From IMG/VR virus record IMGVR_UViG_3300030380_003988, positions 1 through 21,177 of that record: a stretch of 21,177 nt of DNA; one strand, written 5' to 3'. This DNA is from a virus. This document shows, one piece after another, positions 1,071 through 11,632 of this stretch (positions within the stretch are counted from its first letter, which is position 1; every line of letters starts with the position of its first letter). A model generated the notes under the pieces. It made no database searches. It saw nothing but the letters and a program-made list of their open reading frames with translations, and was not told where the DNA came from. The translations under genes were made by a program, and so were the position numbers.

Positions 1071-1149
1071 CGTAAGTCACTGATTATCAACGAGTTACGC
1101 AGAGAGGGCGGCCCGCCGCGCGTAACTCCCTCATTATGAAGGAGTTACG
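1071..1149. repeat. 79-bp double-dyad repeat, copy 1
   Basis: Two 27-base imperfect dyads (GTAAGTCACTGA-TTA-TCAACGAGTTAC at 1072-1098, GTAACTCCCTCA-TTA-TGAAGGAGTTAC at 1122-1148) flank a 22-base block rich in G and C. It sits between the + strand terminator and the 3' end of the minus-strand gene at 1158, starting 8 bases past that gene's stop codon. Five more copies of exactly 79 bp occur up to 7323. The role is unknown. Confidence 0.9.
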
Positions 1150-1157
1150 GGGATGGG

Positions 1158-1340
1158 CTAGATCTTGACGGTCATTTGCTTGAGGACTAAGACGAAGCCG
1201 AGTTCCTTGAGAGCTTCAATATCGTAGTCGGTCAAAGTTTTTCTTCCTGTTAGCTTCTTTATGGAGTTCCTGACAGATTCATCTGTCACATAGGTGAGGG
1301 TGTTTCCATAAACGTCCTTTTGTGTTACTTCTATTGTCAT
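1158..1340 (-). CDS. Small hypothetical protein, 60 aa
   Basis: The 60-residue reading starts at the ATG at 1340 (MTIEVTQKDVYGN). An open frame extends to an ATG at 1475, but that extension is Asn/Ser-rich low-complexity sequence encoded by AT-rich DNA and overlaps the preceding gene, so the shorter start is preferred. The sequence resembles short phage proteins with a beta-hairpin (DVYGNTLTYVTDE) followed by a helix and a C-terminal strand; I cannot assign a function. There is no convincing promoter directly upstream, so it is probably co-transcribed with the gene at 1411-1788. Repeat copy 1 lies 8 bases beyond its stop, and no T-tract terminator is seen. Confidence 0.6.
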   Translation of the reverse strand: MTIEVTQKDVYGNTLTYVTDESVRNSIKKLTGRKTLTDYDIEALKELGFVLVLKQMTVKI

Positions 1341-1410
1341 GTAAAGAATATTATTACTATTGCGGTTACTATTACTATAAAAATTATTTGATTTTCCTGC
1401 ATTTTTTTTA

Positions 1411-1788
1411 TTACCACCAGCAAGAATAGGTGATTTCATATCCCTCGTCGATAGCCTCCCTAGCTTTAGAAACAAAGTCTAGATCATATTCTTTGCGACT
1501 TTCGTCTTGGCTAGTGTCGGAGCCATAAAAGAATCCCACAGTGCTAGGAAGTTTATTCTTGGTGATTGCCTCCTCTAATTTATCAAGATCTTCGGAAGTG
1601 AGTGGAAGGTCTGCACAATTAAGACTCTCCGCTGTCTTCCCAGTCTTTTGACACCAGAGTTCTTCCATCCAACCCTGTAAAGCATTGTGCTTGCGCCAGT
1701 AACAGATTTCTGTAGTTCTGACGGTTCGGGTTTTGGTGGAGGGTGCGTAACTGCTTTTTACTTTGTATGCGTTTTGATCGAGTCCCAT
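1411..1788 (-). CDS. Conserved phage protein of the MGLD...WRKHNALxGWMExL...CWW type
   Basis: The start MGLDQNAYK, the central CYWRKHNALQGWMEELW, the GFFYGS segment and the C-terminal EITYSCWW are hallmarks of a small protein family spread across tailed phages and their hosts. Its function is not established, and family members are often misnamed in databases. At 125 residues it is of usual length. The ATG at 1788 is supported by the MGLD start and by a -10 TACACT and -35 TTGCAA just upstream, with nine bases between -10 and ATG. It heads a probable two-gene unit with 1158-1340. Confidence 0.75.
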   Translation of the reverse strand: MGLDQNAYKVKSSYAPSTKTRTVRTTEICYWRKHNALQGWMEELWCQKTGKTAESLNCADLPLTSEDLDKLEEAITKNKLPSTVGFFYGSDTSQDESRKEYDLDFVSKAREAIDEGYEITYSCWW

Positions 1789-1797
1789 AGTGCTGGT

Positions 1798-1826
1798 AGT
1801 GTATATTCTTTTTTCGCTTGTTGCAA
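1798..1826 (-). promoter_or_regulatory. Promoter for the gene at 1411-1788
   Basis: On the minus strand, TTGCAA (1821-1826) and TACACT (1798-1803) are 17 bases apart. Nine bases separate the -10 from the ATG, slightly more than the usual six here. The promoter lies just beyond the 3' end of the gp88-like gene (stop at 1844). Confidence 0.65.
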
Positions 1827-1843
1827 GTCTTTTTTATTAATTT

Positions 1844-2530
1844 TTATTGCGGATCAACGACAAAGCCCGTTTTGTCTTTCTTTCCTTTACCTTTTGCTAC
1901 TAGCCCGACAATCTTGCCATTACCATCTTCAAAACGTAGATCGGAATCGTCGCCATCAATTACCTCTATTCCAAGCCACGTTTTAGGTAACTTGTTTCTA
2001 AACACAACCGAAACATTGCCGCCACTTGCACACAAGCTCTTTACCAACGTGTCAGGAGTATTCTCTTTCCTTGAAAAAGTGAGATGATAATTGCTTGGTA
2101 GTTTACCCTCCAAGAAACGAACGAATCTATTTAGGTGTTTAGTATAGTCGTAAAATTGAGTATCTGGAAAATGCCCAACAACAAATCGCTCCCAAAGAAT
2201 GTCACTTGTAAGATTTAAACGGAAGCAACTCTTTAGTTCTTTTCTCGTAGCACTTTTAATCGAGCTTTTAATTTCTTTGAATAACTGCGATAGGAATCCA
2301 TCCCGATCCTCATGAAACCTCTGTGTTTTTTTAACTCGGGCATTTTGAACTGAATTCATTGATCCACGACCAGCAGTATTGAGACAAGCAGCAGCGCAAC
2401 CAGCAGAAGCAGAAGCACAAACATTTTTTCCTGATAGGTTATATGGGGCAAGGTGTATACCGTAGGTTTTCCAACCATACTTTTCTCCCTTGCTTGTTTT
2501 GGAATTTCCATCGTTAAGTAGTTTTGCCAT
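1844..2530 (-). CDS. Gene-product-88-like phage protein
   Basis: The N-terminal region KTYGIHLAPYNLSGKNVC, then CAAACLNTAGRGS, is the signature of the phage 'gene product 88' family, known from mycobacteriophages and many other phages and plasmids; the biochemical role is not established. Three cysteines (about residues 38, 45 and 49, spaced C-x6-C-x3-C) stand in this conserved block and could bind metal. The middle contains further conserved-looking text (FRLNLTSDILWERF, TFSRKENTPDTLVKSL). The C-terminus ends in a Lys/Gly-rich stretch and KTGFVVDPQ. At 228 residues it fits the family. The ATG at 2530 lies six bases after a -10 TACATT with -35 TTGACT, implying a leaderless mRNA. Confidence 0.82.
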   Translation of the reverse strand: MAKLLNDGNSKTSKGEKYGWKTYGIHLAPYNLSGKNVCASASAGCAAACLNTAGRGSMNSVQNARVKKTQRFHEDRDGFLSQLFKEIKSSIKSATRKELKSCFRLNLTSDILWERFVVGHFPDTQFYDYTKHLNRFVRFLEGKLPSNYHLTFSRKENTPDTLVKSLCASGGNVSVVFRNKLPKTWLGIEVIDGDDSDLRFEDGNGKIVGLVAKGKGKKDKTGFVVDPQ

Positions 2531-2536
2531 GTGGGT

Positions 2537-2564
2537 AATGTAACAGATTATTTTGATTAGTCAA
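2537..2564 (-). promoter_or_regulatory. Leaderless-type promoter for the gp88-like gene
   Basis: TTGACT (2559-2564) and TACATT (2537-2542) are 16 bases apart, with exactly six bases between the -10 and the ATG. The predicted transcription start therefore falls at the start codon. Confidence 0.7.
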
Positions 2565-2576
2565 TTAAAAATGAAT

Positions 2577-2795
2577 TTAAATTGCAGAGGTAAATTGAAT
2601 GCTGCCCTCTAACTCTTTATAACCGAACTTTTCAAATTCTTCTGCCAGCTTTATCGCTGCGTGTAATGAGCAGACAATACCTGTTTCTTCTGTTCCATCA
2701 AACCACTCAAATACAAAATCAAAAGGTAGGTCATGCGGGTTTGTCCGTGATCCTCGTCGAGAAACATTATATGTCTTTGATCCGATAGTCGTCAT
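2577..2795 (-). CDS. Small hypothetical protein, 72 aa
   Basis: This 72-residue protein starts MTTIGSKTYNVSRRGS. An ATG 18 bases further upstream is open, but it lies inside the promoter -10, so the start at 2795 is preferred. The protein combines likely beta-strands (FDFVFEWFDGTEETGIVCSL) with one amphipathic helix (HAAIKLAEEFEKFGY). I do not recognise the family; membrane segments and catalytic motifs are absent. It has its own near-consensus promoter, so its expression should be strong with the host vegetative polymerase. The end is 46 bases from the start of the gp88-like gene, so read-through into that gene is possible; no terminator is seen between them. Confidence 0.65.
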   Translation of the reverse strand: MTTIGSKTYNVSRRGSRTNPHDLPFDFVFEWFDGTEETGIVCSLHAAIKLAEEFEKFGYKELEGSIQFTSAI

Positions 2796-2801
2796 GGCAA
2801 A

Positions 2802-2830
2802 AATATACCCCAAAGAAAAAAAACTGTCAA
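2802..2830 (-). promoter_or_regulatory. Near-consensus leaderless promoter for the gene at 2577-2795
   Basis: TTGACA (2825-2830), a 17-base spacer and TATATT (2802-2807), then six bases to the ATG, with no room for a ribosome binding site. This is the closest match to the sigma-70 consensus among the accessory promoters. Confidence 0.8.
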
Positions 2831-2854
2831 ATTAAAAAAGAATTAAAATTCAGT

Positions 2855-2933
2855 CGTAAGTCCTTGAGTATCAAGCAGTTACGCTGCGCGGGCGGCCCCC
2901 GCCCCGTAACTCGTTGATATTCAACGAGTTATG
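2855..2933. repeat. 79-bp double-dyad repeat, copy 2 (core inverted)
   Basis: Left dyad 2856-2882, right dyad 2906-2932 (GTAACTCGTTGA-TAT-TCAACGAGTTAT, perfect but for the final base). The central G/C block reads in the opposite sense to copies 1, 3, 5 and 6: its reverse complement, GGGGCGGGGGCCGCCCGC, matches copy 3. It lies between the promoter at 2802-2830 and the terminator of the DUF932 gene. Confidence 0.9.
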
Positions 2934-2980
2934 AGGCTTGAATACCGTGTCAACTAAAAAAACATTTTATTTTTGCAAGC

Positions 2981-3010
2981 AAAAGCCCGCACCCCTTTCG
3001 GAATGCGGGC
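2981..3010 (-). terminator. Intrinsic terminator of the DUF932 gene
   Basis: On the minus strand a GCCCGCA / TGCGGGC stem (3004-3010 with 2985-2991) is followed by TTTTGCTTG. It lies 20 bases beyond the DUF932 stop codon. Confidence 0.82.
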
Positions 3011-3030
3011 CTGTGATGGTAGCGGCAGGG

Positions 3031-3789
3031 CTATGCGGGCAAGGCAATCTCTTCGGCCTCGACGATCTTGGGCTTGTGGCCCGCGAGCCTGTCAAAGACA
3101 GACTGCGTGGTCATCGTGCGCTGTGGCAACTTGGTAAGGTCGCCACCCTTGAGATGCTCGGTCACTCCGTTGTAGAGCGTCCAGAGCGTCCCGCCTTTGA
3201 ACTCCTCATGGCGAGGGTTGCGGAACTCCTGAATCGCCTTGTAGACGGAACGCGCAGGAAACGCACCCATCTCGGCAAGATCGACAACCAAGTCGGAAGC
3301 TGCCTCCTTAGAGATTTCACTCTCCTTGTAGGAAGCAATCCGATTGCCCATGTCAGCCCAGTGCGAGGTAACGCGACTGACGGCAGACGAAAGGACCGTG
3401 TTCAGATCCCGAAGGATGTTGACGGTGTGACGGCGAGCGAGCTTCACATCAGAAGAGAAGCAAAGATTTTCGCAGACCATCATCTGGTTGCCGATGCACA
3501 CGGAAGCTGCAAAGGACTTGTCGTGCGCGTTGCGGAGACCAAGCACAAGCTTGCGATCATCCCCGTCGATTGCCTCGCCCTTGAGGGCGAAGCCGCCGAA
3601 GTAGCGGAGACCGCCACGCGCGATGGCGTGTTCTTCTTGAGTGATCTCAAGACCAGCCTTCGCGATGACATTGCGAGTGCGCTCCGCAAGGAGTGCGTGA
3701 CCGATTGGAGTGTGGGTATCCGTAGCAGCAGGAGTAACGACGTTTGCAAGTTGCTCGGAATCGACTTTGTTTTTAGCTAGTATCAACAT
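3031..3789 (-). CDS. DUF932 (phage/plasmid-like) protein
   Basis: The segment FGGFALKGEAIDGDDRK followed by GLRNAHDKSFAASVCIGNQMMVCENLCFS is characteristic of DUF932, a family common on phages, plasmids and other mobile DNA whose biochemical function is unknown. At 252 residues it is a compact version. The gene is visibly more GC-rich than the structural genes, which suggests a separate origin. The ATG at 3789 lies exactly six bases after a -10 TAAACT paired with -35 TTGCAT, so the mRNA should be leaderless. A hairpin terminator stands just past the stop. The long antisense open frame across it is a shadow produced by its codon use. Confidence 0.85.
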   Translation of the reverse strand: MLILAKNKVDSEQLANVVTPAATDTHTPIGHALLAERTRNVIAKAGLEITQEEHAIARGGLRYFGGFALKGEAIDGDDRKLVLGLRNAHDKSFAASVCIGNQMMVCENLCFSSDVKLARRHTVNILRDLNTVLSSAVSRVTSHWADMGNRIASYKESEISKEAASDLVVDLAEMGAFPARSVYKAIQEFRNPRHEEFKGGTLWTLYNGVTEHLKGGDLTKLPQRTMTTQSVFDRLAGHKPKIVEAEEIALPA

Positions 3790-3795
3790 GCAAGA

Positions 3796-3823
3796 AGTTT
3801 ACCACATAATTGATTTGATGCAA
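3796..3823 (-). promoter_or_regulatory. Leaderless-type promoter for the DUF932 gene
   Basis: TTGCAT (3818-3823) and TAAACT (3796-3801) are 16 bases apart, with six bases to the ATG. The same TTGCAT / TAAACT pair recurs at 5034-5061. Confidence 0.7.
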
Positions 3824-3893
3824 CCCTTTTTTAGCTTTTTCTTTTATTTTTTTTCTGCTTGACAGACTTAAAAACATGTGTTTCTTTTTCCTT

Positions 3894-3970
3894 CGTAAGT
3901 CGTTGAGTATCAACGAGTTACGGGGCGGGGGCCGCCCGCAGCGCGTAACTTCCTGAGTATCAATGAGTTA

Positions 3971-3972
<2 letters not shown>
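3894..3972. repeat. 79-bp double-dyad repeat, copy 3, overlapping the tRNA 3' end
   Basis: Left dyad GTAAGTCGTTGA-GTA-TCAACGAGTTAC (3895-3921), G/C core GGGCGGGGGCCGCCCGC-AGCGC, right dyad GTAACTTCCTGA-GTA-TCAATGAGTTAT (3945-3971). The last two bases of the repeat are also part of the encoded CCA end of the minus-strand tRNA (3971-3973), so the element directly abuts the tRNA 3' terminus. Confidence 0.9.
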
Positions 3973-4046
<74 letters not shown>

Positions 4047-4047
4047 A

Positions 4048-4297
4048 AAGAAAAGCCCCGCCCCCCGTATAGATGAAACGAAAGGGGGGCGGGACTTACC
4101 CCATGTAGCAAGAAAGTGGTCCCCTCCCTCACTGTCTAGAAGAGTGAGGGAGGGTCGGCTTGTTGACGAGTGCCAGTCAATTAAGAGTTGGTCACTGTTA
4201 CCACCTAGCGGTTTATTCGCCCACCACTGGGAGCCTCTGTGTTTTTATGACACCAACGGCACAGAGACCGCAGATGAAATTTGTTTTTATATCCTAG
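4048..4297 (-). ncRNA. Gene-free structured stretch, candidate noncoding RNA
   Basis: About 250 bases between the stop of the gene at 4298 and the tRNA hold no convincing ORF but a series of helices: CTCTGTG/CACAGAG (4235-4241 with 4260-4266), a perfect 12-bp stem CCCTCCCTCACT/AGTGAGGGAGGG (4122-4133 with 4143-4154) and a 12-bp G/C stem (4055-4066 with 4084-4095). On the minus strand the loop of the first stem contains GTTGGT (4252-4257), complementary to ACCAAC at 4187-4192, so an H-type pseudoknot is possible. The stretch would be transcribed from the promoter at 4526. No known RNA family is recognised; strand and function are inferred. Confidence 0.4.
4051..4095 (-). terminator. Strong G/C hairpin with T tract before the tRNA
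   Basis: Read on the minus strand, GTCCCGCCCCCC (4084-4095) pairs with GGGGGGCGGGGC (4055-4066) with one mismatch, followed by TTTTCTTT immediately before the tRNA 5' end. It looks like an intrinsic terminator for the transcript from 4526, yet it is only about eight bases upstream of the tRNA, which then lacks an obvious promoter. It may instead be a processing structure. Confidence 0.5.
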
Positions 4298-4519
4298 CTA
4301 GGAATTCTGTAACTCACTAAGAGAAAACTTGTCATTAAGAGACTTTGCATGTTTGCGCGTCCACTTAACATTATCTAAGAAGGTATCAAGTTTATTATCT
4401 TCTACCTCCTCAAGACGACTTGCGAGGTGCTGATGAACCAAGCCAAGTGCATAGTTAAGAATGGCGGCTTGTTCCTGTGTTTTTACTTCGATACGAAGTG
4501 TTTCTGATGATTTAGGCAT
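4298..4519 (-). CDS. Small hypothetical protein, 73 aa
   Basis: Unrecognised 73-residue protein starting MPKSSETLRIEVKTQEQ. It is predominantly helical in appearance (QAAILNYALGLVHQHLASRLEEVEDNKLDTFLDNV), with one short N-terminal strand, no membrane segment and no cysteine. Such small helical proteins are common as phage regulators or host-takeover factors, but nothing specific points to a function. The ATG at 4519 follows a -10 TAAATT by six bases, with a perfect -35 TTGACA. Its stop codon lies in a perfect palindrome, TCCTAGCTAGGA, after which the structured gene-free stretch begins. Confidence 0.65.
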   Translation of the reverse strand: MPKSSETLRIEVKTQEQAAILNYALGLVHQHLASRLEEVEDNKLDTFLDNVKWTRKHAKSLNDKFSLSELQNS

Positions 4520-4525
4520 GATGCT

Positions 4526-4554
4526 AATTTATTCTATTGTTTGTTGTTTGTCAA
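4526..4554 (-). promoter_or_regulatory. Leaderless-type promoter for the gene at 4298-4519
   Basis: TTGACA (4549-4554), a 17-base spacer and TAAATT (4526-4531), then six bases to the ATG. This transcript could continue through the structured stretch toward the tRNA. Confidence 0.72.
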
Positions 4555-4567
4555 ATTTTTTGTTGTA

Positions 4568-4612
4568 GAAAGGGGTGGCAGGACTTAAGACACACACACA
4601 CCTACCACCCCT
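4568..4612 (-). terminator. Long-loop hairpin after the gene at 4628
   Basis: AGGGGTGGTAGG (4601-4612, minus strand) pairs with CCTGCCACCCCT (4571-4582) with one mismatch, followed by TTCT. The 18-base loop contains a GT dinucleotide run. It is a likely but imperfect terminator because the T tract is short. Confidence 0.5.
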
Positions 4613-4627
4613 CATGCGTTTACACAC

Positions 4628-4906
4628 CTACACAACAGTCGAAATTCTATCTACAATGAGGTTTCTGTATTTCTCCTTACCACCATCTTGAGGGTCAATG
4701 ATCTTGACATTTACATATTGATCTCCCGTTGATTGAGAGATTGAAACGTCCTCTACGGCTTCAACCTTGAAGACCCTTTCTCTGTCGAAGGTAACAGAAG
4801 AATCTTTTTTAGTTGTATAGTGAACTGTCTTGCCAGTAAGGGCAGAAGCAAGTTGCACAGGGTTAGTAGGAAGGGTGAGGTTGGCAGTAATGGTGTTTGT
4901 TTGCAT
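4628..4906 (-). CDS. DGGK-motif small protein, paralogue A (92 aa)
   Basis: The 92-residue protein starts MQTNTITANLTLPTNP. The frame is open for 56 more codons upstream, but the ATG at 4906 stands seven bases after a clear -10 TATACT / -35 TTGCAC, so the short form is preferred. The C-terminal half (VNVKIIDPQDGGKEKYRNLI followed by VDRISTVV) aligns with the protein at 6033-6368 (EVQDLDDGGKTKFRTLHVAG, then ITKV). Shared residues are DGGK-x-K-[YF]-R-x-L-x-V-x-x-I-x-x-V, and the upstream SSV...F.V strands also match. The pattern suggests a small beta-barrel fold (inference). I know no function. The pair probably arose by duplication of a cassette. Confidence 0.68.
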   Translation of the reverse strand: MQTNTITANLTLPTNPVQLASALTGKTVHYTTKKDSSVTFDRERVFKVEAVEDVSISQSTGDQYVNVKIIDPQDGGKEKYRNLIVDRISTVV

Positions 4907-4913
4907 TGAGGTA

Positions 4914-4941
4914 AGTATAGCAGAATTTTGAGTGAGTGCAA
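4914..4941 (-). promoter_or_regulatory. Leaderless-type promoter for paralogue A
   Basis: TTGCAC (4936-4941) and TATACT (4914-4919) are 16 bases apart, with seven bases to the ATG at 4906. This decides the start of the gene against the longer open frame. Confidence 0.72.
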
Positions 4942-5033
4942 GAGGTTTTTTGCTGAATTTTAATTTTTTTCTGAGCATGGTCTGTTTTTGTTGTAGGTTA
5001 GAGAAGCATAGGTTAAATAGCTTCGATACAAAT

Positions 5034-5061
5034 AGTTTACCAAATATCGCCAGATATGCAA
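5034..5061 (-). promoter_or_regulatory. Orphan promoter-like pair with no start codon
   Basis: TTGCAT (5056-5061) and TAAACT (5034-5039) with a 16-base spacer repeat the DUF932 promoter elements, but no ATG follows at the usual distance; the frame there is closed within a few codons. The 190 bases between 4906 and 5096 hold no other feature. It could start a short RNA running into paralogue A, or be a remnant of a lost cassette. Confidence 0.4.
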
Positions 5062-5095
5062 GCGATTTCTGCATTTAAATTAATTTTTTTTCAGT

Positions 5096-5174
5096 CGTAA
5101 CTCGTTGTATATCAATGACTTACGCGCTGCGGCCTACCCCCGCCCCGTAACTCCCTGATTATCAAGGAGTTAGA
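5096..5174. repeat. 79-bp double-dyad repeat, copy 4 (core inverted), supplying a stop codon
   Basis: Left dyad GTAACTCGTTGT-ATA-TCAATGACTTAC (5097-5123), right dyad GTAACTCCCTGA-TTA-TCAAGGAGTTAG (5147-5173). The core reads in the inverted sense, as in copy 2. The terminal TTA of the repeat (5170-5172) is the TAA stop of the minus-strand gene starting at 5388. Confidence 0.9.
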
Positions 5175-5388
5175 TGTCCATGTATTCCGCGATTTTTTTA
5201 TGACCCCGCCACGCCGTCCACCCCTCCACAGAGATGCCCGAACAGTATTGAGCCTTGGCATCCCCCTCGTAGAGATTTTCCCAAGCGATCCGCGAGGCTT
5301 CTTCAGAAGCCTTCTTGGGAGAACGCGACATCGCGACTCCTGTGTAAACTCCTGTGCTGGCGACGATGTAGTAGCTGAACGTATACAT
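5170..5388 (-). CDS. Small hypothetical protein, 72 aa
   Basis: Unrecognised 72-residue protein, MYTFSYYIVASTGVYTGVAM and then a hydrophilic part (SRSPKKASEEASRIAWENLYEG...). The N-terminal 20 residues are hydrophobic/aromatic but look more like beta-strands than a signal peptide, because no basic N-region exists. The ATG at 5388 lies six bases after a -10 TACACT with -35 TTGCCA. Remarkably, the stop codon is contributed by repeat copy 4, so the gene ends exactly where the repeat begins. Either the repeat landed at or replaced the original end, or gene and repeat move as one unit. No T-tract terminator follows. Confidence 0.62.
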   Translation of the reverse strand: MYTFSYYIVASTGVYTGVAMSRSPKKASEEASRIAWENLYEGDAKAQYCSGISVEGWTAWRGHKKIAEYMDI

Positions 5389-5394
5389 GAGAGT

Positions 5395-5422
5395 AGTGTA
5401 ACAGATAATTTGCTTTTGGCAA
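5395..5422 (-). promoter_or_regulatory. Leaderless-type promoter for the gene at 5170-5388
   Basis: TTGCCA (5417-5422) and TACACT (5395-5400) are 16 bases apart, with six bases to the ATG. Confidence 0.68.
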
Positions 5423-5441
5423 TCTTTTTTTTACATAAAAG

Positions 5442-5470
5442 CACAAAAAAAAAGCTCCCTTTCGGGAGCC
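5442..5470 (-). terminator. Intrinsic terminator of the gene at 5496-5732
   Basis: On the minus strand GCTCCC (5464-5469) pairs with GGGAGC (5454-5459) around a four-base loop, followed by nine T residues. It is a strong, textbook terminator lying 26 bases past the stop. Confidence 0.88.
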
Positions 5471-5495
5471 TTGAAGAGAGTCTTGTCTCTTTTGA

Positions 5496-5732
5496 TTATT
5501 CAGCGTCGAGGTAAGACTGGAGGGCTTGAGCGTCTGAGGGGTCCAATCCGTCCTGATCAGTAGACCAGTTAGGATCGCGATCACCGAGATCAGCGTGGAT
5601 CTCAGCGAGAACCTCCTGCACCTCATCGGGCGTAGGGTTCCAGTTCCCGCAGCGAGGCCCATCACTGAGCATGTCGCGCAGGTCAGATTCTGTCATCGGG
5701 GCGAGTTGGCCAATAGGATTTTGAACTGTCAT
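5496..5732 (-). CDS. Small, strongly acidic hypothetical protein, 78 aa
   Basis: The 78-residue protein has about 17 Asp/Glu (mostly Asp) against three Arg and no Lys, spread along its whole length (ESDLRDMLSDG, TPDEVQEVLAEIHADLGDRD, DQDGLDPSDAQAL). It shows two or three short helices and no membrane segment. Such charge is typical of DNA-mimic inhibitors that phages use against host nucleases or regulators, but this is only an analogy. The ATG at 5732 follows a -10 TAGGTT by six bases with -35 TTGCAC, and a strong terminator follows the stop, so it is a complete single-gene cassette. Confidence 0.68.
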   Translation of the reverse strand: MTVQNPIGQLAPMTESDLRDMLSDGPRCGNWNPTPDEVQEVLAEIHADLGDRDPNWSTDQDGLDPSDAQALQSYLDAE

Positions 5733-5738
5733 GCGAGT

Positions 5739-5766
5739 AACCTACCAGAAGATCGCAGGAGTGCAA
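5739..5766 (-). promoter_or_regulatory. Leaderless-type promoter for the acidic protein gene
   Basis: TTGCAC (5761-5766) and TAGGTT (5739-5744) are 16 bases apart, with six bases to the ATG. The -10 is weaker than most here. Confidence 0.6.
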
Positions 5767-5822
5767 ATGTTTTTTTATCTTTTTTTTTCTTAGGTTACAG
5801 GTTAGAACAACAAATATCAAAT

Positions 5823-5843
5823 AGCCAAATATTTGGCTTGACA
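5823..5843 (+). promoter_or_regulatory. Perfect 16-bp palindrome overlapping a TTGACA
   Basis: AGCCAAATATTTGGCT (5823-5838) is perfectly self-complementary and its last base begins TTGACA (5838-5843). No good -10 or ORF follows on the + strand before repeat copy 5. It may be a protein-binding site or an orphan promoter. The 300 bases from 5733 to 6032 otherwise contain only the promoter at 5739, repeat copy 5 and a terminator. Confidence 0.4.
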
Positions 5844-5873
5844 GGGTATTACAATGCATATTTTGTAAGGTGA

Positions 5874-5952
5874 CGTAACTCGTTGAGTATCAAGGAGTTA
5901 CGCAGGGCGGGCTGGCCGCAGCGCGTAACTCACTGAGTATGAAGGAGTTACG
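5874..5952. repeat. 79-bp double-dyad repeat, copy 5
   Basis: Left dyad GTAACTCGTTGA-GTA-TCAAGGAGTTAC (5875-5901), 22-base G/C core, right dyad GTAACTCACTGA-GTA-TGAAGGAGTTAC (5925-5951). It lies 30 bases from the terminator of paralogue B. A minus-strand TTGACAGCCG abuts its right edge, as at copy 6. Confidence 0.92.
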
Positions 5953-5981
5953 GCTGTCAAGGCCAAAAAACAATTTAATGC

Positions 5982-6017
5982 AAAAAAAACCCGCCAGCCT
6001 CCGAAGAGACTGACGGG
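5982..6017 (-). terminator. Intrinsic terminator of paralogue B
   Basis: On the minus strand CCCGTCAGTC (6008-6017) pairs with GGCTGGCGGG (5990-5999) with G-T wobbles, followed by eight T residues. Confidence 0.85.
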
Positions 6018-6032
6018 CAACACGCTATGCAC

Positions 6033-6368
6033 TTAAAAAACTGATTTGGCTAGCTGGTAAGCGGTCGCCACGCGACCTTTAACTTTGGTGATCCCTGCAA
6101 CGTGCAAGGTGCGGAACTTGGTCTTGCCTCCATCGTCGAGGTCTTGAACCTCGCCTTGGATGTAGCGACGACCCGAACCTTTAGCGTGATCGGTGTGGTC
6201 GATTGACTTGATCACGAACTGACGGACACCATCATTCTTGACGGAGGATTCTTCGCTGTTCCAGTAAGTGACAACGCGATTGGTGAGCTTGTTCTTGAGG
6301 TCTTGATCACTGAGTCCATAGAGAGAGTGATCGAAGCGGGTGGTGGTAGTGGTAGTGGTGTTTTTCAT
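6033..6368 (-). CDS. DGGK-motif small protein, paralogue B (111 aa)
   Basis: The 111-residue protein starts with MKN and seven threonines, then a helix (YGLSDQDLKNKLTNR) and a beta-rich part ending in EVQDLDDGGKTKFRTLHVAG and ITKVKGRV. The region from about residue 25 to 95 aligns with the 92-residue product at 4628-4906 (see there). Paralogue B has an extra C-terminal basic tail (VKGRVATAYQLAKSVF). Function is unknown. The ATG at 6368 lies nine bases after a perfect -10 TATAAT, so at most a very short leader is made. A strong terminator follows. Confidence 0.7.
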   Translation of the reverse strand: MKNTTTTTTTRFDHSLYGLSDQDLKNKLTNRVVTYWNSEESSVKNDGVRQFVIKSIDHTDHAKGSGRRYIQGEVQDLDDGGKTKFRTLHVAGITKVKGRVATAYQLAKSVF

Positions 6369-6377
6369 AACGAGAGA

Positions 6378-6406
6378 ATTATAACAGAGATTTGAGTGAG
6401 TAAAAA
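6378..6406 (-). promoter_or_regulatory. Promoter for paralogue B
   Basis: A perfect -10 TATAAT (6378-6383) is seen nine bases before the ATG. The matching -35 position holds only TTTTTA (6401-6406), so this promoter may depend on an activator or on its A/T-rich upstream tract. Confidence 0.55.
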
Positions 6407-6436
6407 GCTTTTTTTGTATTTATTTTGATTTTTTTT

Positions 6437-6501
6437 TGGTGGATAGCGGGGGAGTCGAACCCCCATCCGCGACTTGCGTCCCGTCGAAACCCTTGCTACC
6501 C
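6437..6501 (-). ncRNA. Mini-tmRNA: tmRNA tRNA-like domain without a message domain
   Basis: Read on the minus strand from 6501 to 6437: acceptor GGGTAGC, then AAGGGTTTCGACGGG (the near-invariant 5' motif of tmRNA), a hairpin GAC-GCAA-GTC closed by a GNRA tetraloop, CGCGGAT, T-arm GGGGG-TTCGACT-CCCCC, acceptor GCTATCC, discriminator A and an encoded CCA. The third acceptor pair is G-U (G3:U70), the alanyl-tRNA synthetase identity element. The 30 bases between acceptor and T-arm are too few for D and anticodon arms, so it is not a tRNA. Normal tmRNA has about 300 nt (pseudoknots and tag ORF) where this has the tetraloop. It would be alanylated yet carry no tag. Its acceptor stem contains the TAG stop of the upstream 62-aa gene. 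Confidence 0.75.
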
Positions 6502-6684
6502 TAACTGAACTTCCTTGACTGCTTCATCAAGTTGGCTCTCGATTCTTTTGAAGGTCTCCTTGTTAAAGGCAGAAGTCTCTTGGAATGAAGACCTTGCTGC
6601 TGCGATGCCTGAAACTCCCTTCATTACCATTTGAAGTTTGAAGATTTGATCTTTGAGGTGTTCGATTTGTTCTTTTTCTGTCAT
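6496..6684 (-). CDS. Small coiled-coil-like protein, 62 aa
   Basis: Unrecognised 62-residue protein, MTEKEQIEHLKDQIFKLQMV with heptad-like hydrophobics at the start and a second helix (FKRIESQLDEAVKEVQL) at the end, joined by a Ser/Ala-rich linker. It probably forms a helical dimer (inference). The ATG at 6684 follows a -10 TAGATT by six bases with -35 TTGCAC. The stop TAG (6496-6498) lies inside the 5' acceptor strand of the mini-tmRNA, so the two are almost certainly on one transcript: ribosomes finishing this ORF would run onto the RNA's first stem, or RNase P cleavage at 6501 would remove the stop codon from the message. Confidence 0.66.
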   Translation of the reverse strand: MTEKEQIEHLKDQIFKLQMVMKGVSGIAAARSSFQETSAFNKETFKRIESQLDEAVKEVQLG

Positions 6685-6690
6685 GAGTAG

Positions 6691-6719
6691 AATCTACTTT
6701 AGTTTTTGAGATAGTGCAA
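6691..6719 (-). promoter_or_regulatory. Leaderless-type promoter for the 62-aa gene and mini-tmRNA
   Basis: TTGCAC (6714-6719), a 17-base spacer and TAGATT (6691-6696), then six bases to the ATG. It is the nearest promoter upstream of the tmRNA-like domain. Confidence 0.68.
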
Positions 6720-6736
6720 CCTTTTATTTTGTTTTT

Positions 6737-6937
6737 TTAAGGAAGAAAATGAGGGGCTTGCTTTGGCTGATTAGGCACATCTTTTATAAACCATTCGCGC
6801 TGTTTTTTCTGGAACTCTCGGGCTTCTTTTACGAATTGCTCCGAAACCTCGACGGTTCTATTGACCATCTTATTCCAATTGTCTTCGGCCTTCTTCATTG
6901 CTGCTAGTGCTTCCTGTGCTTCTTTTGATACGTTCAT
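6737..6937 (-). CDS. Small helical protein, 66 aa
   Basis: Unrecognised 66-residue protein, MNVSKEAQEALAAMKKAEDNWNKMV followed by a charged amphipathic helix (SEQFVKEAREFQKKQREWFI) and a Pro-rich end. It is almost wholly helical and could be a coiled coil. Unlike its neighbours it has no recognisable promoter close to the ATG. Its start codon overlaps by four bases (ATGA) the stop of an upstream open frame (6934-7074), so it may be translated by coupling from a transcript starting near 7111. No terminator separates it from the 62-aa gene's promoter. Confidence 0.58.
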   Translation of the reverse strand: MNVSKEAQEALAAMKKAEDNWNKMVNRTVEVSEQFVKEAREFQKKQREWFIKDVPNQPKQAPHFLP

Positions 6938-7074
6938 AGTGTTTGTATTTGGGAAATTGGTCGCTCTAAAAGGAATTGCACCTTTGTCTTTCTCGCCCGA
7001 ACCATTGGGGTTGCGGTGACTTTCGCGCCGAGATTATCATCGAGCGTGTTATTGAAGAGGTCGTGGAGAATGTT
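6934..7074 (-). pseudogene. Possible broken or non-ATG small ORF
   Basis: A 46-codon open frame (NILHDLFNNTLDDNLGAKVT..., ending LLERPISQIQTL) has protein-like composition and higher GC than the A/T-rich spacers. It begins directly after a TAA stop and has no ATG until codon 24 (7003-7005). Its end overlaps the next gene by ATGA, as coupled genes do. The TATACT at 7111 is followed not by ATG but by AGC at the usual distance. It may be a gene that lost its start, a product of ATT initiation or a 23-residue peptide. Confidence 0.3.
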
Positions 7075-7110
7075 TTACTTTTTAAACTATAGAGCTTTCT
7101 TGCTGGGAGA

Positions 7111-7116
7111 AGTATA
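7111..7116 (-). promoter_or_regulatory. Orphan -10 element
   Basis: A TATACT identical to the strongest -10 boxes here lies on the minus strand with no ATG in the usual position and only a weak -35. It may drive the broken frame and the 66-aa gene. Apart from this, the broken frame, repeat copy 6 and the terminator at 7354, nothing else is seen between 6938 and 7404. Confidence 0.4.
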
Positions 7117-7244
7117 GCACAGATCCGTATGAATTAAAAGCTTTTTTTACCTTTAAAATGATTTTTTTTAAGTTGTCAGACAGGTTAATTTTTTTTCATT
7201 TAAATGCTTGCGTTGATCTAAAAGTATGATACATGAGGAATCTT

Positions 7245-7323
7245 CGTAAGTCGTTGGTTATCAAGGAGTTACGGGGCGGGGGCGGGCCGCCGCGCGTAAC
7301 TCGTTGAGTATCAGTGAGTTACG
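7245..7323. repeat. 79-bp double-dyad repeat, copy 6
   Basis: Left dyad GTAAGTCGTTGG-TTA-TCAAGGAGTTAC (7246-7272), core GGGCGGGGGCGGGCCGCC-GCGC, right dyad GTAACTCGTTGA-GTA-TCAGTGAGTTAC (7296-7322). A minus-strand TTGACAGCG abuts its right edge. It is the last copy; none is found in the + strand structural region. Confidence 0.92.
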
Positions 7324-7353
7324 CTGTCAAGCTTTTTATTTATTTTTTTACAA

Positions 7354-7387
7354 GAAAAAACCTCGCCACCCGTTGGGGTGACGAGGC
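7354..7387 (-). terminator. Intrinsic terminator of the gene at 7405-7746
   Basis: On the minus strand CCTCGTCACCC pairs with GGGTGGCGAGG (7375-7386 with 7361-7371, one G-T wobble), followed by TTTTTTCTTG. Confidence 0.88.
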
Positions 7388-7404
7388 TCCATGACAGCGG
7401 TAGT

Positions 7405-7746
7405 CTACCCTACCGAAAGTTTTTTATCCATGCTGTTCGCGGCGAGATCATCGCCCACAACCATTAGATCCTTCTTGACAAGTCTATGGTGACAAGTCGG
7501 AGAGATCGTTGGCACTGATTCTCTGCGTAGGCGCAAGATGGTTTCGAGTATCCATTCACACGTTCCGCGAAAGTTTTTTATGTCGCTATTGTCGGCAACT
7601 GCTTCACTGCACATATCAGTGATCACAGCAGCGGTGTATTTGTCAATGGTTGGTTCTTCTACGTTAGCCATGTCGCGTCTCAAGCGAGATTCTTTGAGGG
7701 CTTTAACGATTACGGAGTAGATGAATGCTGGTTTCTTAACGGTCAT
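7405..7746 (-). CDS. Hypothetical protein, 113 aa
   Basis: Unrecognised 113-residue protein, MTVKKPAFIYSVIVKALKESRLRRDM at the start, a helical middle (TIDKYTAAVITDMCSEAVADNSDIKNFRGTC) and a C-terminal part with CHHRLVKKD. Two cysteines and a His pair are spread too far apart to call a zinc site. It has no membrane segment. The ATG at 7746 lies six bases after TATACT with -35 TTGCAA, and a strong hairpin terminator follows, making it a self-contained cassette bordered by repeat copy 6. Confidence 0.68.
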   Translation of the reverse strand: MTVKKPAFIYSVIVKALKESRLRRDMANVEEPTIDKYTAAVITDMCSEAVADNSDIKNFRGTCEWILETILRLRRESVPTISPTCHHRLVKKDLMVVGDDLAANSMDKKLSVG

Positions 7747-7752
7747 GAGAGT

Positions 7753-7780
7753 AGTATAGTGTAGTTTGAGATTATTGCAA
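7753..7780 (-). promoter_or_regulatory. Leaderless-type promoter for the gene at 7405-7746
   Basis: TTGCAA (7775-7780) and TATACT (7753-7758) are 16 bases apart, with six bases to the ATG. A nearly identical 15-base -10-to-ATG block (TATACTAC...ATG) recurs at 8345 and 8660. Confidence 0.75.
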
Positions 7781-7788
7781 GGATTATT

Positions 7789-8124
7789 TTAGAGTTTTAT
7801 ATCAACTAATTCCTTTCCCGTGATTGTGTTGGGTGTGCGCTTGGCCTTGCGTCTTGCGGGTGCGTCATTGATCCAGTCGATGGCAGTGATGCAAGGAGCC
7901 AGCACCATAGCAGGAAGGTAAGTGAGAGCCATGAAGTGTAGGAAGTTATAGGCATGATAGTAGACCTCTCCGTTTGCTTTGGTCTCATACCATCCTCCGA
8001 TGTTGTCAATGGCTTGGGGCAAGCCGACGAAGTAAGCCATCAAGCCGAAGATGGCAAGCACGGCAACGTGGGTGATCATTACGATAGTGACGAAGTTCTT
8101 GAGGTAGTTTAAACGATGGTTCAT
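7789..8124 (-). CDS. Two-TM membrane protein, 111 aa
   Basis: Two hydrophobic segments, about residues 11-34 (FVTIVMITHVAVLAIFGLMA) and 62-82 (FLHFMALTYLPAMVLAPCIT), are joined by a short loop containing GGWYETKANGEVYYH. A basic tail (DAPARRKAKRTPN) suggests both termini face the cytoplasm under the positive-inside rule. I recognise no family; superinfection exclusion or an inner-membrane accessory role is possible but unsupported. It starts 35 bases after the stop of the gene at 8160 without a strong promoter of its own, so the two probably form an operon driven from 8352-8380. Confidence 0.68.
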   Translation of the reverse strand: MNHRLNYLKNFVTIVMITHVAVLAIFGLMAYFVGLPQAIDNIGGWYETKANGEVYYHAYNFLHFMALTYLPAMVLAPCITAIDWINDAPARRKAKRTPNTITGKELVDIKL

Positions 8125-8159
8125 AATTTTATTTTTGTTAGTGTTTAGGTGTGAGTGAA

Positions 8160-8345
8160 TTACCAGCCGACTCTGTTTCTGTCGTGGTTTTTGAGAATGT
8201 CTTCAAGTCTTTTCGAGATCTCTGGATTGTCAGCTTTAAGCCATCCGACAAGGAAGAAAAGATCATCACGCATTTCGGTTGCTGCGTTACGCTCTTGAAA
8301 GAATTTATCTTGGTCAGTCTTGGGAGTTGATTTTGTTACTGGCAT
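8160..8345 (-). CDS. Small hypothetical protein, 61 aa
   Basis: Unrecognised 61-residue hydrophilic protein with a helical centre (NAATEMRDDLFFLVGWLKADNPEISKRLEDIL). No motif is diagnostic. The ATG at 8345 lies six bases after TATACT with -35 TTGCAC. It is the first gene of a probable two-gene unit with the membrane protein at 7789-8124, so the two products may act together at the membrane (inference from position only). Confidence 0.65.
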   Translation of the reverse strand: MPVTKSTPKTDQDKFFQERNAATEMRDDLFFLVGWLKADNPEISKRLEDILKNHDRNRVGW

Positions 8346-8351
8346 GGGTGT

Positions 8352-8380
8352 AGTATAGTTTAGATTTTGATTCTGTGCAA
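8352..8380 (-). promoter_or_regulatory. Leaderless-type promoter for the 8160/7789 operon
   Basis: TTGCAC (8375-8380), a 17-base spacer and TATACT (8352-8357), then six bases to the ATG. Confidence 0.75.
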
Positions 8381-8399
8381 GGATTTTTTATTCTTTTTT

Positions 8400-8660
8400 T
8401 TAGACGTTATCATCAGCCCAGAAAGCTTTTGCGTCGAAGTCCACATACCAGTCTTGTCTCTGGTTAGAGTGGTAGCGGTAACCATAGGACTTGCCACCGC
8501 CCAAAGCCTTGCGCTGTTCAAGGTTCCTAGCTATAGAACTCTCGGAAGGCCAGATGTCGGTAACCTTGGTGAAGCCTTCGACTTCGAAGTCATCGTTGAA
8601 TTTAACGGTGCGACCATCGTCCCAAGTTACGCTGCGGTAGTATTCTTTGTTTGCTGTCAT
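8400..8660 (-). CDS. Hypothetical protein, 86 aa
   Basis: Unrecognised 86-residue protein rich in aromatic residues (YYRSVTWDDGRTVKFNDDFEVEGF, YGYRYHSNQRQDWYVDFDAKAFW), with strands suggesting a small beta fold. It has no membrane segment and no cysteine. It is the first gene of the minus-strand block, divergent from the PhoH gene on the + strand. The ATG at 8660 follows TATACT by six bases with -35 TTGACC inside a small palindrome, so it may be regulated. Confidence 0.68.
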   Translation of the reverse strand: MTANKEYYRSVTWDDGRTVKFNDDFEVEGFTKVTDIWPSESSIARNLEQRKALGGGKSYGYRYHSNQRQDWYVDFDAKAFWADDNV

Positions 8661-8852: not shown

Positions 8853-9530
8853 ATGTCATATAAATATAAAAACTCTTTTTTGTTGGGACATATAGAACTT
8901 ACAGAAAAACAAAGTCAATTTCATAAGATCATGAGGAACCCCAATACGAGGGTAGTATTTATAAGTGGGCCAGCAGGGACGGCAAAGACATTTTTGTCAG
9001 TGTATACGGCTATATACAAACACAATCAGGACAATCTGCTTAATATTCTTTATTTGAGGAGTTTGGCAGAGAGTGCGGATAAGGGGATGGGTTTTCTGAA
9101 AGGAAGTATGGATGATAAATTCAATCCATATATTGGACCCCTAGATGATAAACTGGATGAACTTTTAAGTCCACATGAAAAACAACAATTACAACAAAGG
9201 AATGCGGTAGATGCGGCCCCGATTAACTTTATTCGTGGGTCTACATGGAGGAATAAGATCGTTATCGTTGACGAAGCGCAAAACATGACGATAAAAGAAC
9301 TTACAACTGTCATTACTAGGATAAGTGCGAACTCTACATTATTTATATGTGGAGACACAATGCAGAGTGATATTAGGTCTACTGGCTTCCAACAATTTTG
9401 CAAGGTCTTCGACGATGAAGAAAGTCGGAGTCATGGGATTCATCACTTGAATTTTACGAAGGATGATGTTATGAGAGATAAGATTATTAGCTATTTAGTA
9501 GATAAAATTGAAAAAAACCAATTAAATTAA
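8853..9530 (+). CDS. phoH: PhoH-like P-loop ATPase
   Basis: Walker A GPAGTAKT (residues 39-46), Walker B IVIVDEAQN (136-144) and the GDTMQSD sensor segment (167-173) are the PhoH signature, as is the intervening LRSLAESADKGMGFLKGSMDDKFNPYIGPLDDKL. PhoH-like proteins are RNA helicase-like ATPases very common in marine and other tailed phages; their role in infection is unsettled. At 225 residues it is a stand-alone PhoH core without the PIN or KH domains found in some relatives. No Shine-Dalgarno sequence precedes the ATG. It heads the + strand operon. Confidence 0.92.
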   Translation: MSYKYKNSFLLGHIELTEKQSQFHKIMRNPNTRVVFISGPAGTAKTFLSVYTAIYKHNQDNLLNILYLRSLAESADKGMGFLKGSMDDKFNPYIGPLDDKLDELLSPHEKQQLQQRNAVDAAPINFIRGSTWRNKIVIVDEAQNMTIKELTTVITRISANSTLFICGDTMQSDIRSTGFQQFCKVFDDEESRSHGIHHLNFTKDDVMRDKIISYLVDKIEKNQLN

Positions 9531-9536
9531 TAAAAT
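9508..9536 (+). promoter_or_regulatory. Leaderless-type promoter before the zinc-ribbon gene
   Basis: TTGAAA (9508-9513) inside the end of the PhoH gene, a 17-base spacer and TAAAAT (9531-9536) are followed by five bases and the ATG at 9542. The A/T-rich context makes chance matches more likely here. Confidence 0.5.
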
Positions 9537-9541
9537 TAGCC

Positions 9542-9904
9542 ATGAATAAACTTTTTTGTGTATCGTGTGGACATAAGATCTTGTATGAGGTAAAGAAGCC
9601 TAAGTTTTGCCCAGAATGTGGGCAGAGTCTCGATGGCTTATCCAAGGCTTCAACAGAACAAGATGTGGACGAGCAGCCTGAGTTAGATGTTGATTTAGAT
9701 AAATTAAAAAGAGACATTGTTGTAGAGTCTTCTAATCAAAAGACTACAGTTGAACAAATTTGGGGTTCTGTTACTGCTGCCGAAGCAGGAATGGAAAGAG
9801 ATAGTTTTTCTAGGCCAGCTTCGAAAGATCCTGATGGAAAAGAACTTTTAGATCAAACTATTAAAGATTGTTCCTCATCTCGGATGAGAGATGTCGATGA
9901 ATAA
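9542..9904 (+). CDS. Zinc-ribbon protein, 120 aa
   Basis: The N-terminus holds a classical zinc ribbon, C-x2-C (CVSCGH) and C-x2-C (CPECGQ), within the first 30 residues. The rest is hydrophilic, rich in Asp/Glu/Ser and likely disordered. It probably binds nucleic acid or RNA polymerase, but nothing specific is known. It overlaps the following sigma-like gene by 14 bases, and the adjacency of a small zinc ribbon and a sigma-like factor hints at a joint role in late transcription (inference). Confidence 0.72.
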   Translation: MNKLFCVSCGHKILYEVKKPKFCPECGQSLDGLSKASTEQDVDEQPELDVDLDKLKRDIVVESSNQKTTVEQIWGSVTAAEAGMERDSFSRPASKDPDGKELLDQTIKDCSSSRMRDVDE

Positions 9905-10574
9905 TGATTTTGATAGTCAGCGAGATTATTTAGAAGAGCTTCTTAAAAAATATAGACCAAAATGGCAACTAAGCGCTTTAGCTTGGATGGATTATGATGA
10001 TGTTTGTCAAATAATCCGAATACATATACATAACAAGTGGCATCTTTGGGATCAGTCTCGCCCATTCAAGCCTTGGGCTTCGATGATTATATCCAATCAG
10101 ATTAAAAACCTGATTCGTAATAATTATTCAAGTTTTGCCAAGCCGTGTTTGCGCTGCCCTCATAACATGGGGGCAAACTCTTGCGAATTTACTAAAAGCC
10201 AAGAGCAAGATGAATCTTGCCCTGATTTTGCTAAATGGAGAAAGAAAAAGGAAAGAGCGTATAACATAAAGCTTCCATTAGCTTTGGAAGAAGGTGTTTC
10301 GACAGGAACGGCGACAATAAAAGATTTTGTTGATTATGATGGTTCTGCTCAAAAATTGCATAAACTTGTAATGGATCAGTTAAGTGACAAGCATAAAAAG
10401 ATTTATTACATGCTTTACGTCGAGAACATTGAAGAAAATGATGTTGCGAAGAAATTTGGGTTCAAAGCCGACTCAGCCAAGCGAAAAAAGCCAAGATATA
10501 AACAAATGGCAAATTTAAAAAAGAAATTTTATTTAATTGCTCTTAAGATTATAAAGAACAATGACATTTTATGA
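9891..10574 (+). CDS. Sigma-70-like RNA polymerase factor with cysteine insert
   Basis: Residues about 30-78 (AWMDYDDVCQIIRIHIHNKW ... PFKPWASMIISNQIKNLIRN) read like sigma region 2, and residues about 160-215 (LSDKHKKIYYMLYVENIEEN, then DVAKKFGF) like a region 4 helix-turn-helix. Between them is an insert with four cysteines (C86, C89, C98, C110) able to bind zinc. Phage-encoded sigma factors such as T4 gp55 direct late transcription; its position at the head of the packaging and capsid genes fits that role (inference). Two in-frame ATGs (9891, 9897) are possible starts. It ends in a 4-base ATGA overlap with the next gene, so translation is coupled. Confidence 0.68.
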   Translation: MSMNNDFDSQRDYLEELLKKYRPKWQLSALAWMDYDDVCQIIRIHIHNKWHLWDQSRPFKPWASMIISNQIKNLIRNNYSSFAKPCLRCPHNMGANSCEFTKSQEQDESCPDFAKWRKKKERAYNIKLPLALEEGVSTGTATIKDFVDYDGSAQKLHKLVMDQLSDKHKKIYYMLYVENIEENDVAKKFGFKADSAKRKKPRYKQMANLKKKFYLIALKIIKNNDIL

Positions 10575-11632
10575 ACAATTTAGCATTAACAGAGAAACAA
10601 AAGACTCAAATACAAGAAGAGTTCGTTAAAAATCCAGATTTGCGTCATATCACACAAATAGTGTTTGAAGATGATAGTTTGGATGGTCGTTCTAAGGAAG
10701 GAAGGGCCGTCAGAGCATTTTTAATTAATAATAATTTAGAATTTAACACAACGACCCCACAAAGAGTTGAAGAAATAGATTTAACAACTGAACAAAGAGA
10801 ATTCTTGATGAGTGATAACATCGAGAGAGGGATGAATGCATTAGAGGCTACTAGGCTAGCTTTTCGGGATAGAGAGATACAGCCACTTAGTCAGCAGCAT
10901 AGGATGGTTATGGAGTTCCTCCGTAGTTACAGGCCAGAGATTGTCGATGACAATGATATGATCACTAGTGACAAGTGGACTCCTCCTAAATCGCTATCTA
11001 GGGCGATTAAGAAGGTTAACGATTGGGCTGGTCAGACATTTGACGAAATATCAATACAAACAAAACAAAAGAAAATGTGTGAAAGGCTTCTCTTCTACCT
11101 GAAGAGTCCTCGTTTCGTTCATTTCATTAATCAATACTCAACAATAGCAGATAGAGACTTATTTGAGAGTGAGTTTGTTCGGACGGTGTGGGACAAGCCC
11201 GATTTAACAAATGATGAGCTAAACTTGTATATTACTGTTTGCACGAACTATGTTCGGCAGAAGCATATTCAACAAAGAATCGACAGATTGAACAATATGC
11301 TCAATGACACCGAAAATGAGCGGGATATAACATTGCGTCTTACTGAGCTTATAAAGGCCACCAGCGACGAGCTAAACCAATGTGAGAAAAGAATCGAATC
11401 TTTGACCAAAGACCTTAACGGAAGCCGTCAGGCGCGTTTAAAGGCAAGAGGAGAGCAAAACGGGAGCATCGCTGCGCTAGTGGAGGCATTTCAAGAGAAA
11501 GAGGAACGTGATAGGATGATTATGATGGCAGAGATGCAAAACAAGCTAATCGAAGAAGAAGCTGACCGACTTGAGTCTATGGATGACTACAAAGCTCGGA
11601 TTCTAGGAATATCTAAAAAAGAGATCTTATGA
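10571..11632 (+). CDS. Putative small terminase or packaging-associated protein, 353 aa
   Basis: The first 60 residues contain helices of HTH-like type (LTEKQKTQIQEEFVKNPDLRHITQIVF...GRAVRAFL), and ATRLAF / LSQQHRMVMEFLR follow. From about residue 235 to 345 the sequence is a long charged coiled coil (RIDRLNNMLNDTENERDITL, EELNQC..., EKEERDRMIMMAEMQNK). DNA binding plus coiled-coil oligomerisation and the position two genes before the large terminase suggest the small terminase, but no family signature is certain. It overlaps both neighbours by ATGA, so the three genes are translationally coupled. Confidence 0.5.
   Translation: MNNLALTEKQKTQIQEEFVKNPDLRHITQIVFEDDSLDGRSKEGRAVRAFLINNNLEFNTTTPQRVEEIDLTTEQREFLMSDNIERGMNALEATRLAFRDREIQPLSQQHRMVMEFLRSYRPEIVDDNDMITSDKWTPPKSLSRAIKKVNDWAGQTFDEISIQTKQKKMCERLLFYLKSPRFVHFINQYSTIADRDLFESEFVRTVWDKPDLTNDELNLYITVCTNYVRQKHIQQRIDRLNNMLNDTENERDITLRLTELIKATSDELNQCEKRIESLTKDLNGSRQARLKARGEQNGSIAALVEAFQEKEERDRMIMMAEMQNKLIEEEADRLESMDDYKARILGISKKEIL

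Follow-up and report, generated by a model that had tools for sequence, protein, structure and literature searches.

A paired-dyad element that probably marks a new kind of gene-cassette boundary in an uncultured phage group

The window analyzed here is the whole of a 21,177-nucleotide stretch of viral DNA (IMG/VR record IMGVR_UViG_3300030380_003988, positions 1 to 21,177). It contains a minus-strand block of small accessory genes and, associated with that block, six double-dyad elements of 79 bp. Each element is made up of a 27-bp dyad, a GC-rich core, and a second 27-bp dyad, and the distance between the two dyad starts is exactly 50 bp in all six. An initial annotation had reported six copies of a 79-bp double-dyad repeat between 1071 and 7323, and all six were found. 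We regard the element as a probable new type of boundary between gene cassettes. The features of the region are as follows.

1071-1149, plus strand: element 1, 79 bp, at the end of the block beside a convergent plus-strand gene with a terminator at 1029-1052
1158-8660, minus strand: accessory block of small genes, among them GP88 (1844-2530) and DUF932 (3031-3789); in many genes the ATG follows a sigma-70-like promoter by a few bases
2855-2933, plus strand: element 2, a 79-bp double dyad
3859-3864, plus strand: TTGACA reading into element 3, 35 bp ahead of it, with a weak -10
3894-3972, plus strand: element 3, 79 bp, adjoining the 3' end of tRNA-Met
3971-4046, minus strand: tRNA-Met (CAT), its 3' end touching element 3
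5096-5174, plus strand: element 4, 79 bp, containing the stop codon of minus-strand gene 5170-5388
5838-5843, plus strand: TTGACA reading into element 5, 36 bp ahead of it and followed by TATTTT
5874-5952, plus strand: element 5, 79 bp, at the left edge of a cassette that differs in the relative L051
5989-6018, minus strand: intrinsic terminator closing minus-strand gene 6033-6368 ahead of element 5, as read along the gene
7245-7323, plus strand: element 6, 79 bp, at the right edge of the L051-variable cassette, with a T-rich tract on the plus side
7357-7390, minus strand: intrinsic terminator closing minus-strand gene 7405-7746 ahead of element 6, as read along the gene

With up to three mismatches allowed, the dyad consensus matched the window seven times and matched none of 100 dinucleotide shuffles, which retain dinucleotide content only approximately. 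None of the six elements was called as a terminator by an intrinsic-terminator scan of the window. A search of the window against Rfam 15 at the gathering score returned tRNA-Met (3974-4046) as its sole match, so that no element was assigned to a known Rfam family. The elements sit past the ends of cassettes and ahead of the promoter of the next cassette. Intrinsic terminators close the cassettes that precede elements 5 and 6, and the first genes of the block have no element upstream of them.

The initial annotation had placed every copy 3' of one cassette and 5' of the next promoter. This holds for most copies, with exceptions: no minus-strand gene lies beyond the leftmost copy (1071), the stop codon of gene 5170-5388 falls inside copy 5096-5174, copy 3894-3972 abuts the tRNA-Met gene at 3971-4046, and many copies in the wider family have their own opposite-strand promoter reading into the element. 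Its description of the copies as bounded by C and G fails for copy 5096-5174, which ends in GTTAGA. The contact between the 3' end of tRNA-Met (CAT) and an element was seen in five phages, namely the window and four relatives (L048, 977-1051; L051, 8420-8495; L074, 5786-5861; L103, 18461-18535).

The element family has hundreds of further copies in IMG/VR, whose contigs may be fragments. A scan with the exact pattern matched 68 stretches, and a second scan with a shorter dyad pattern matched at least 118. The first set held 208 double dyads spaced exactly 50 bp apart, the others being spaced by 51, 52, 48, or 58-60 bp. The carriers are an uncultured, widespread, and largely marine phage group. 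A terminase of the window's lineage was present in 15 of the 16 long element-bearing contigs tested (∼35-90% identity), and the dyads are kept across terminases that are only 36% identical. The 50,697 phage records of INPHARED gave no DNA match to the window beyond a lone match of 25 bp (E 0.7). The nearest annotated terminases and portals, from Bacillus phages of the Slash/Stahl type and Microcystis phage MaeS, have ∼20-25% identity over their length, and the capsid protein of the window had no match at all in our searches. The shared terminase lineage and the absence of a close annotated match make the element a signature of a large phage clade that has no cultured relative in the collection searched.

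The element is confined in a contig of 170.5 kb (G001), which is probably near complete as its ends share sequence. The 13 elements of this contig are all gathered in a single ∼16-kb arc upstream of the PhoH-terminase operon, with none elsewhere. Copies inside genes are essentially absent, 2 of 443 elements overlapping homology-supported coding sequence, and the earlier statement that the elements occur only in the minus-strand accessory block was thus borne out. Neither finding that the initial annotation had named as a refutation, copies within conserved genes or membership of an established family, was made, the latter as judged by the Rfam search.

The spacing of the dyads takes a single value in 74 of the 81 contigs that have three or more elements. 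The modal value per contig is 48, 49, 50, 51, 52, or 55 bp, with 58-62 bp in further contigs. The element length, originally described as absolutely fixed, is therefore constant within most phages and differs between clades. The core has an average GC content of 0.90 in contigs with a GC content of 0.41, and cores inside a single phage can be unrelated in sequence yet identical in length. We read this as selection on the distance and composition of the core, apparently tuned per clade. The core of the 50-spacing clade folds better than shuffled sequences (z = -0.42 ± 0.07). That of the 58-spacing clade forms a strong predicted hairpin (z = -1.5; stems of 5.6 versus 3.6 bp) and reads CCCC-TTCG-GGGG or the complement. 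Tandem dyads and near-perfect hairpin cores with TTCG, TACG, or GAA loops were observed in L067, L028, G009 (L105), and L159, where the spacing is 58-60 bp.

The dyads behave differently from RNA stems. Pairing between dyad positions equals the expectation from independent columns (0.788 versus 0.780 and 0.779 versus 0.769), and no compensatory pairing was detected in a search for RNA covariation in the dyads. Almost every copy has C or G at position 6 and also at the partner position, with no pairing preference between the two. The same degenerate dyad occurs, single and in low copy number, in Fibrobacter and a few other bacteria. At 12 Fibrobacter loci (L113, L117, L119, L122, L125, L128, L129, L130, L133, L135, L141, and L235) it lies 155-272 bp upstream of one conserved gene, which starts MKFVFLCDANYLKGD, and its flanks look unrelated by inspection. 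The lack of compensatory pairing, together with the single dyad in Fibrobacter, makes the dyads look like DNA-protein sites, and the uncompensated variation suits independent half-sites read on double-stranded DNA. The bridging protein complex suggested earlier would be consistent with the non-compensated half-sites and with a per-phage spacing that is kept while the cores diverge. Two other signals did not survive scrutiny. The first, an apparent avoidance of pairing along the long hairpin, weakened once the elements were oriented by gene direction, mixed core orientation being the best explanation, and periodic partner matches every ∼2.3 kb in Fibrobacter were chance matches within a coding repeat.

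A positioned antisense promoter at the element is a new feature in this analysis. Hexamer enrichment in the flanks, with element orientation assigned by homology to the genes of the window, identified CTTGACA at a fixed position; expectation-maximization (EM)-based orientation on the core did not yield a clean strand. About 70 of 313 non-redundant copies have an exact TTGACA whose first base lies 34-38 bp ahead of the element, most often at 37 bp. When one mismatch was allowed, the hexamer was present at the left of 112 and at the right of 42 of 312 copies, compared with 6-33 in shifted windows. The consensus at distance 37 is CTTGACA-N16-TATAGA-N8/9-element. Between relatives, in pairs picked for the presence of TTGACA in one member, identity is 0.95 in the -35, 0.82 in the -10 region, and 0.66 in the spacer. 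Given the usual promoter geometry, the distance of TTGACA from the element predicts that transcription starts near the element edge and runs against the block genes, so that the element often appears to begin about where a sigma-70-type promoter would initiate. Some copies have a second, convergent promoter, and one (G012:2717, oriented) has textbook promoters from both sides.

Breaks in the homology between relatives are enriched at the elements. The window and L051 are unrelated between elements 5 and 6 and align on the outer sides, homology stopping at the elements themselves. Over all contig pairs, which are not independent of one another, 25% of the ends of homology fall at elements against 11% expected by coverage. 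The inferred breakpoints are scattered across the element and not at one point. Of its two neighbors, the core goes somewhat more often with the cassette to whose 3' end it is attached, with an identity of 0.68 versus 0.51 for the other side and a background of 0.48. In two orthologous pairs (L013:3087/L032:669 and L013:655/L064:11070, oriented) the core is inverted and the dyads and flanks are conserved. Travel of the whole element with one flanking cassette amounted to a mild bias only, and a strong-looking case of such travel, L029/L059, proved to be a mis-registered element.

Our preferred reading, to which we give a probability of roughly 0.4, is that a protein bound to the element would make it a transcription boundary that separates autonomous early cassettes, with a second role as a recombination patch. 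In this composite boundary the two 27-bp dyads (half-site GTAASTCNYTGA) would most likely bind a dimeric DNA-binding protein, possibly of cellular origin, and would be held at a phage-specific distance by the constant-length, GC-rich core. A sigma-70-type promoter directed against the neighboring genes would often initiate close to where the module begins, sometimes with a second promoter opposite. Each early cassette would have its own promoter and gene or genes, and the bound module, with the intrinsic terminator before some copies, would keep polymerases from crossing from one cassette to another. Because the module recurs with conserved ends, those ends could serve as homologous patches for the swapping of cassettes between phages, and we infer that recombination may occur at the elements, rather than the elements merely being left at module edges.

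Several observations weigh against a bound boundary of this kind. No candidate for the binding protein was identified. The -10 is not enriched in pooled flanks, which limits the promoter claim to a subset; a clear promoter is found in only about one third of copies, and in the window TTGACA occurs only at copies 3 and 5 (3859 and 5838), both with a poor -10. Strict intrinsic terminators precede only 13% of the family copies. A pure protein-site model does not account for the hairpin tendency of the core, which is weak overall and strong in the 58-spacing clade. The enrichment of homology breaks, besides being counted over non-independent pairs, may partly reflect a general tolerance of intergenic spacers for module edges.

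The main competing explanation, which we think rather unlikely, is that the element is a small-RNA gene: a transcript of ∼85-95 nucleotides would start from the promoter at the element, fold as a pair of outer hairpins flanking a GC-rich inner one, and end in a U-tract after the second dyad, with both strands transcribed in some copies. Such a gene would account for the placement of the promoter at the element edge, conserved between relatives, for core folding above that of shuffles (z = -0.42, and z = -1.5 in the 58-spacing clade) with TTCG-type loops, and for a T-rich tract that starts 2-9 nucleotides after dyad 2 in 36% of family copies versus 5% in shuffles. However, the promoter and the tract are not associated with each other (odds ratio 1.4, p = 0.18), the tract may instead be the discriminator of a convergent promoter, and the asymmetries of the element are independent of the promoter side. 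Dyads that lack compensatory pairing and occur alone in bacteria are likewise not what an RNA stem would predict. A further reading is a self-contained class of multi-copy elements: paired protein-binding dyads would enclose a GC core that forms a hairpin, convergent promoters at the two edges would give complementary structured RNAs from the two strands, and the element would isolate and shuffle early cassettes, by way of a DNA signal shared with cellular bacteria. We regard this reading as improbable.

Distinctly improbable in our view is an integron-like array in which the elements are site-specific recombination sites, one at the 3' end of each gene. An element does lie at the 3' end of every cassette, the last one included, cassettes are replaced between elements where homology breaks are enriched, and the association of the core with its 3'-end cassette and the two core inversions would fit such a system. 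Nevertheless, neither integrase (PF00589) nor resolvase (PF00239) was detected in 12 contigs of 67-170 kb, which are mostly fragments but include the probably near-complete G001, although PF00589 was detected in 14 of 14 control genomes; moreover, breakpoints spread over the element and the dyad center is variable. We hold a similarly low opinion of the proposal that the elements act as decoys, titrating or recruiting a DNA-binding protein of the host for which the single dyad is the native site. This would explain why the same degenerate, low-copy dyad is found in Fibrobacter and a few bacteria and is conserved upstream of one Fibrobacter gene, but a decoy needs no fixed spacing, GC core, or promoter. 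Moreover, the dyad is rare among the sampled relatives of one carrier, an Akkermansia: it was present in 2 of 288 genomes of that phylum, and a housekeeping site of the phylum was rejected on this basis. A mobile miniature element of the REP/BIME (repetitive extragenic palindrome/bacterial interspersed mosaic element) or MITE (miniature inverted-repeat transposable element) type, also raised in the initial annotation, is very improbable. The copies are numerous, palindromic, and intergenic, and their paired palindromes are BIME-like, but 575 comparisons in which both flanks were conserved contained no clear empty site (542 had a gap of 77-81 bp, and the smallest gap was 55 bp), which argues against active mobility. 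Furthermore, the Y1 (RAYT-type) transposase family PF01797 was found in none of the same 12 contigs and in 5 of 14 control genomes, and the dyads are conserved over terminases down to 36% identity.

The surrounding genes have features of their own. Between 90 and 8660 of the window many accessory genes have a sigma-70-like promoter (TTGNNN, 16-17 nucleotides, TANNNT) that ends ∼6 bp before the ATG, as at 2793-2830, 4517-4554, and 7741-7780, all on the minus strand; these promoters were identified partly by eye. Their position suggests that the mRNAs may be leaderless. The block also includes two paralogous minus-strand genes, 4628-4906 and 6033-6368, which have 33% identity and are present in many related blocks. 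The operon that precedes the terminase (8853-14440) encodes a PhoH-like protein, a zinc ribbon protein, a sigma-70 region 2 protein, one unassigned protein, and an ERCC4-type nuclease. The nuclease (11629-12582) has a C2H2 zinc finger and is a candidate enzyme for palindromic or branched DNA.

Several known systems resemble the element in part. The stoperators of cluster A mycobacteriophages are short intergenic sites, present in many copies and proposed to halt transcription; those of L5 are single asymmetric 13-mers whose orientation follows that of transcription and to which a repressor binds as a monomer (PMC9283540). The elements described here are instead paired symmetric 27-bp dyads, and no repressor was recognized in these phages, so that the stoperator analogy drawn in the initial annotation is functional at best and does not extend to the form of the site. 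REP/BIME sequences are intergenic palindromes that sometimes occur in pairs (PMC3733652). The present elements share this arrangement but differ in that no GTAG/CGTC tag was noticed, no RAYT transposase was found in the 12 contigs, and the comparisons gave no sign of transposition. Integron attC sites form a palindromic module with a variable center at the 3' end of each gene cassette. Our elements are alike in position and in their variable center, but no integrase was found in the 12 contigs, an R/L box consensus was not noticed, and the spacing is constant in each phage. The elements lack tested defining features of stoperators, attC sites, and REP/BIME.

The functionally nearest known system appears to be the promoter early stem-loop (PeSL) elements of T4-type phages (Arbiol et al. 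2010; Comeau et al. 2014), which, as cited in PMC4503421, are repeated intergenic modules of promoter and stem-loop in variable early regions, coinciding with gene shuffling. The likeness would lie in repeated intergenic modules that combine a promoter with palindromes and accompany modular gene shuffling; about one copy in three has a positioned promoter here. The differences are that the promoter here is usually antisense to the genes, that the core unit is a pair of conserved 27-bp dyads with a set spacing and a GC core between them, and that the phages are not T4-type and are without a cultured relative. Because of the phage type and the promoter direction, the elements are not placed among the PeSL. 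We know of no sequence shared between the two. The Fibrobacter chromosomal dyad points to an unrecognized bacterial DNA-binding protein that cells and phages may share. The element itself offers a testable handle on how the many small early genes of big phages are independently expressed and exchanged, the same question that the PeSL elements raise for T4-type phages.

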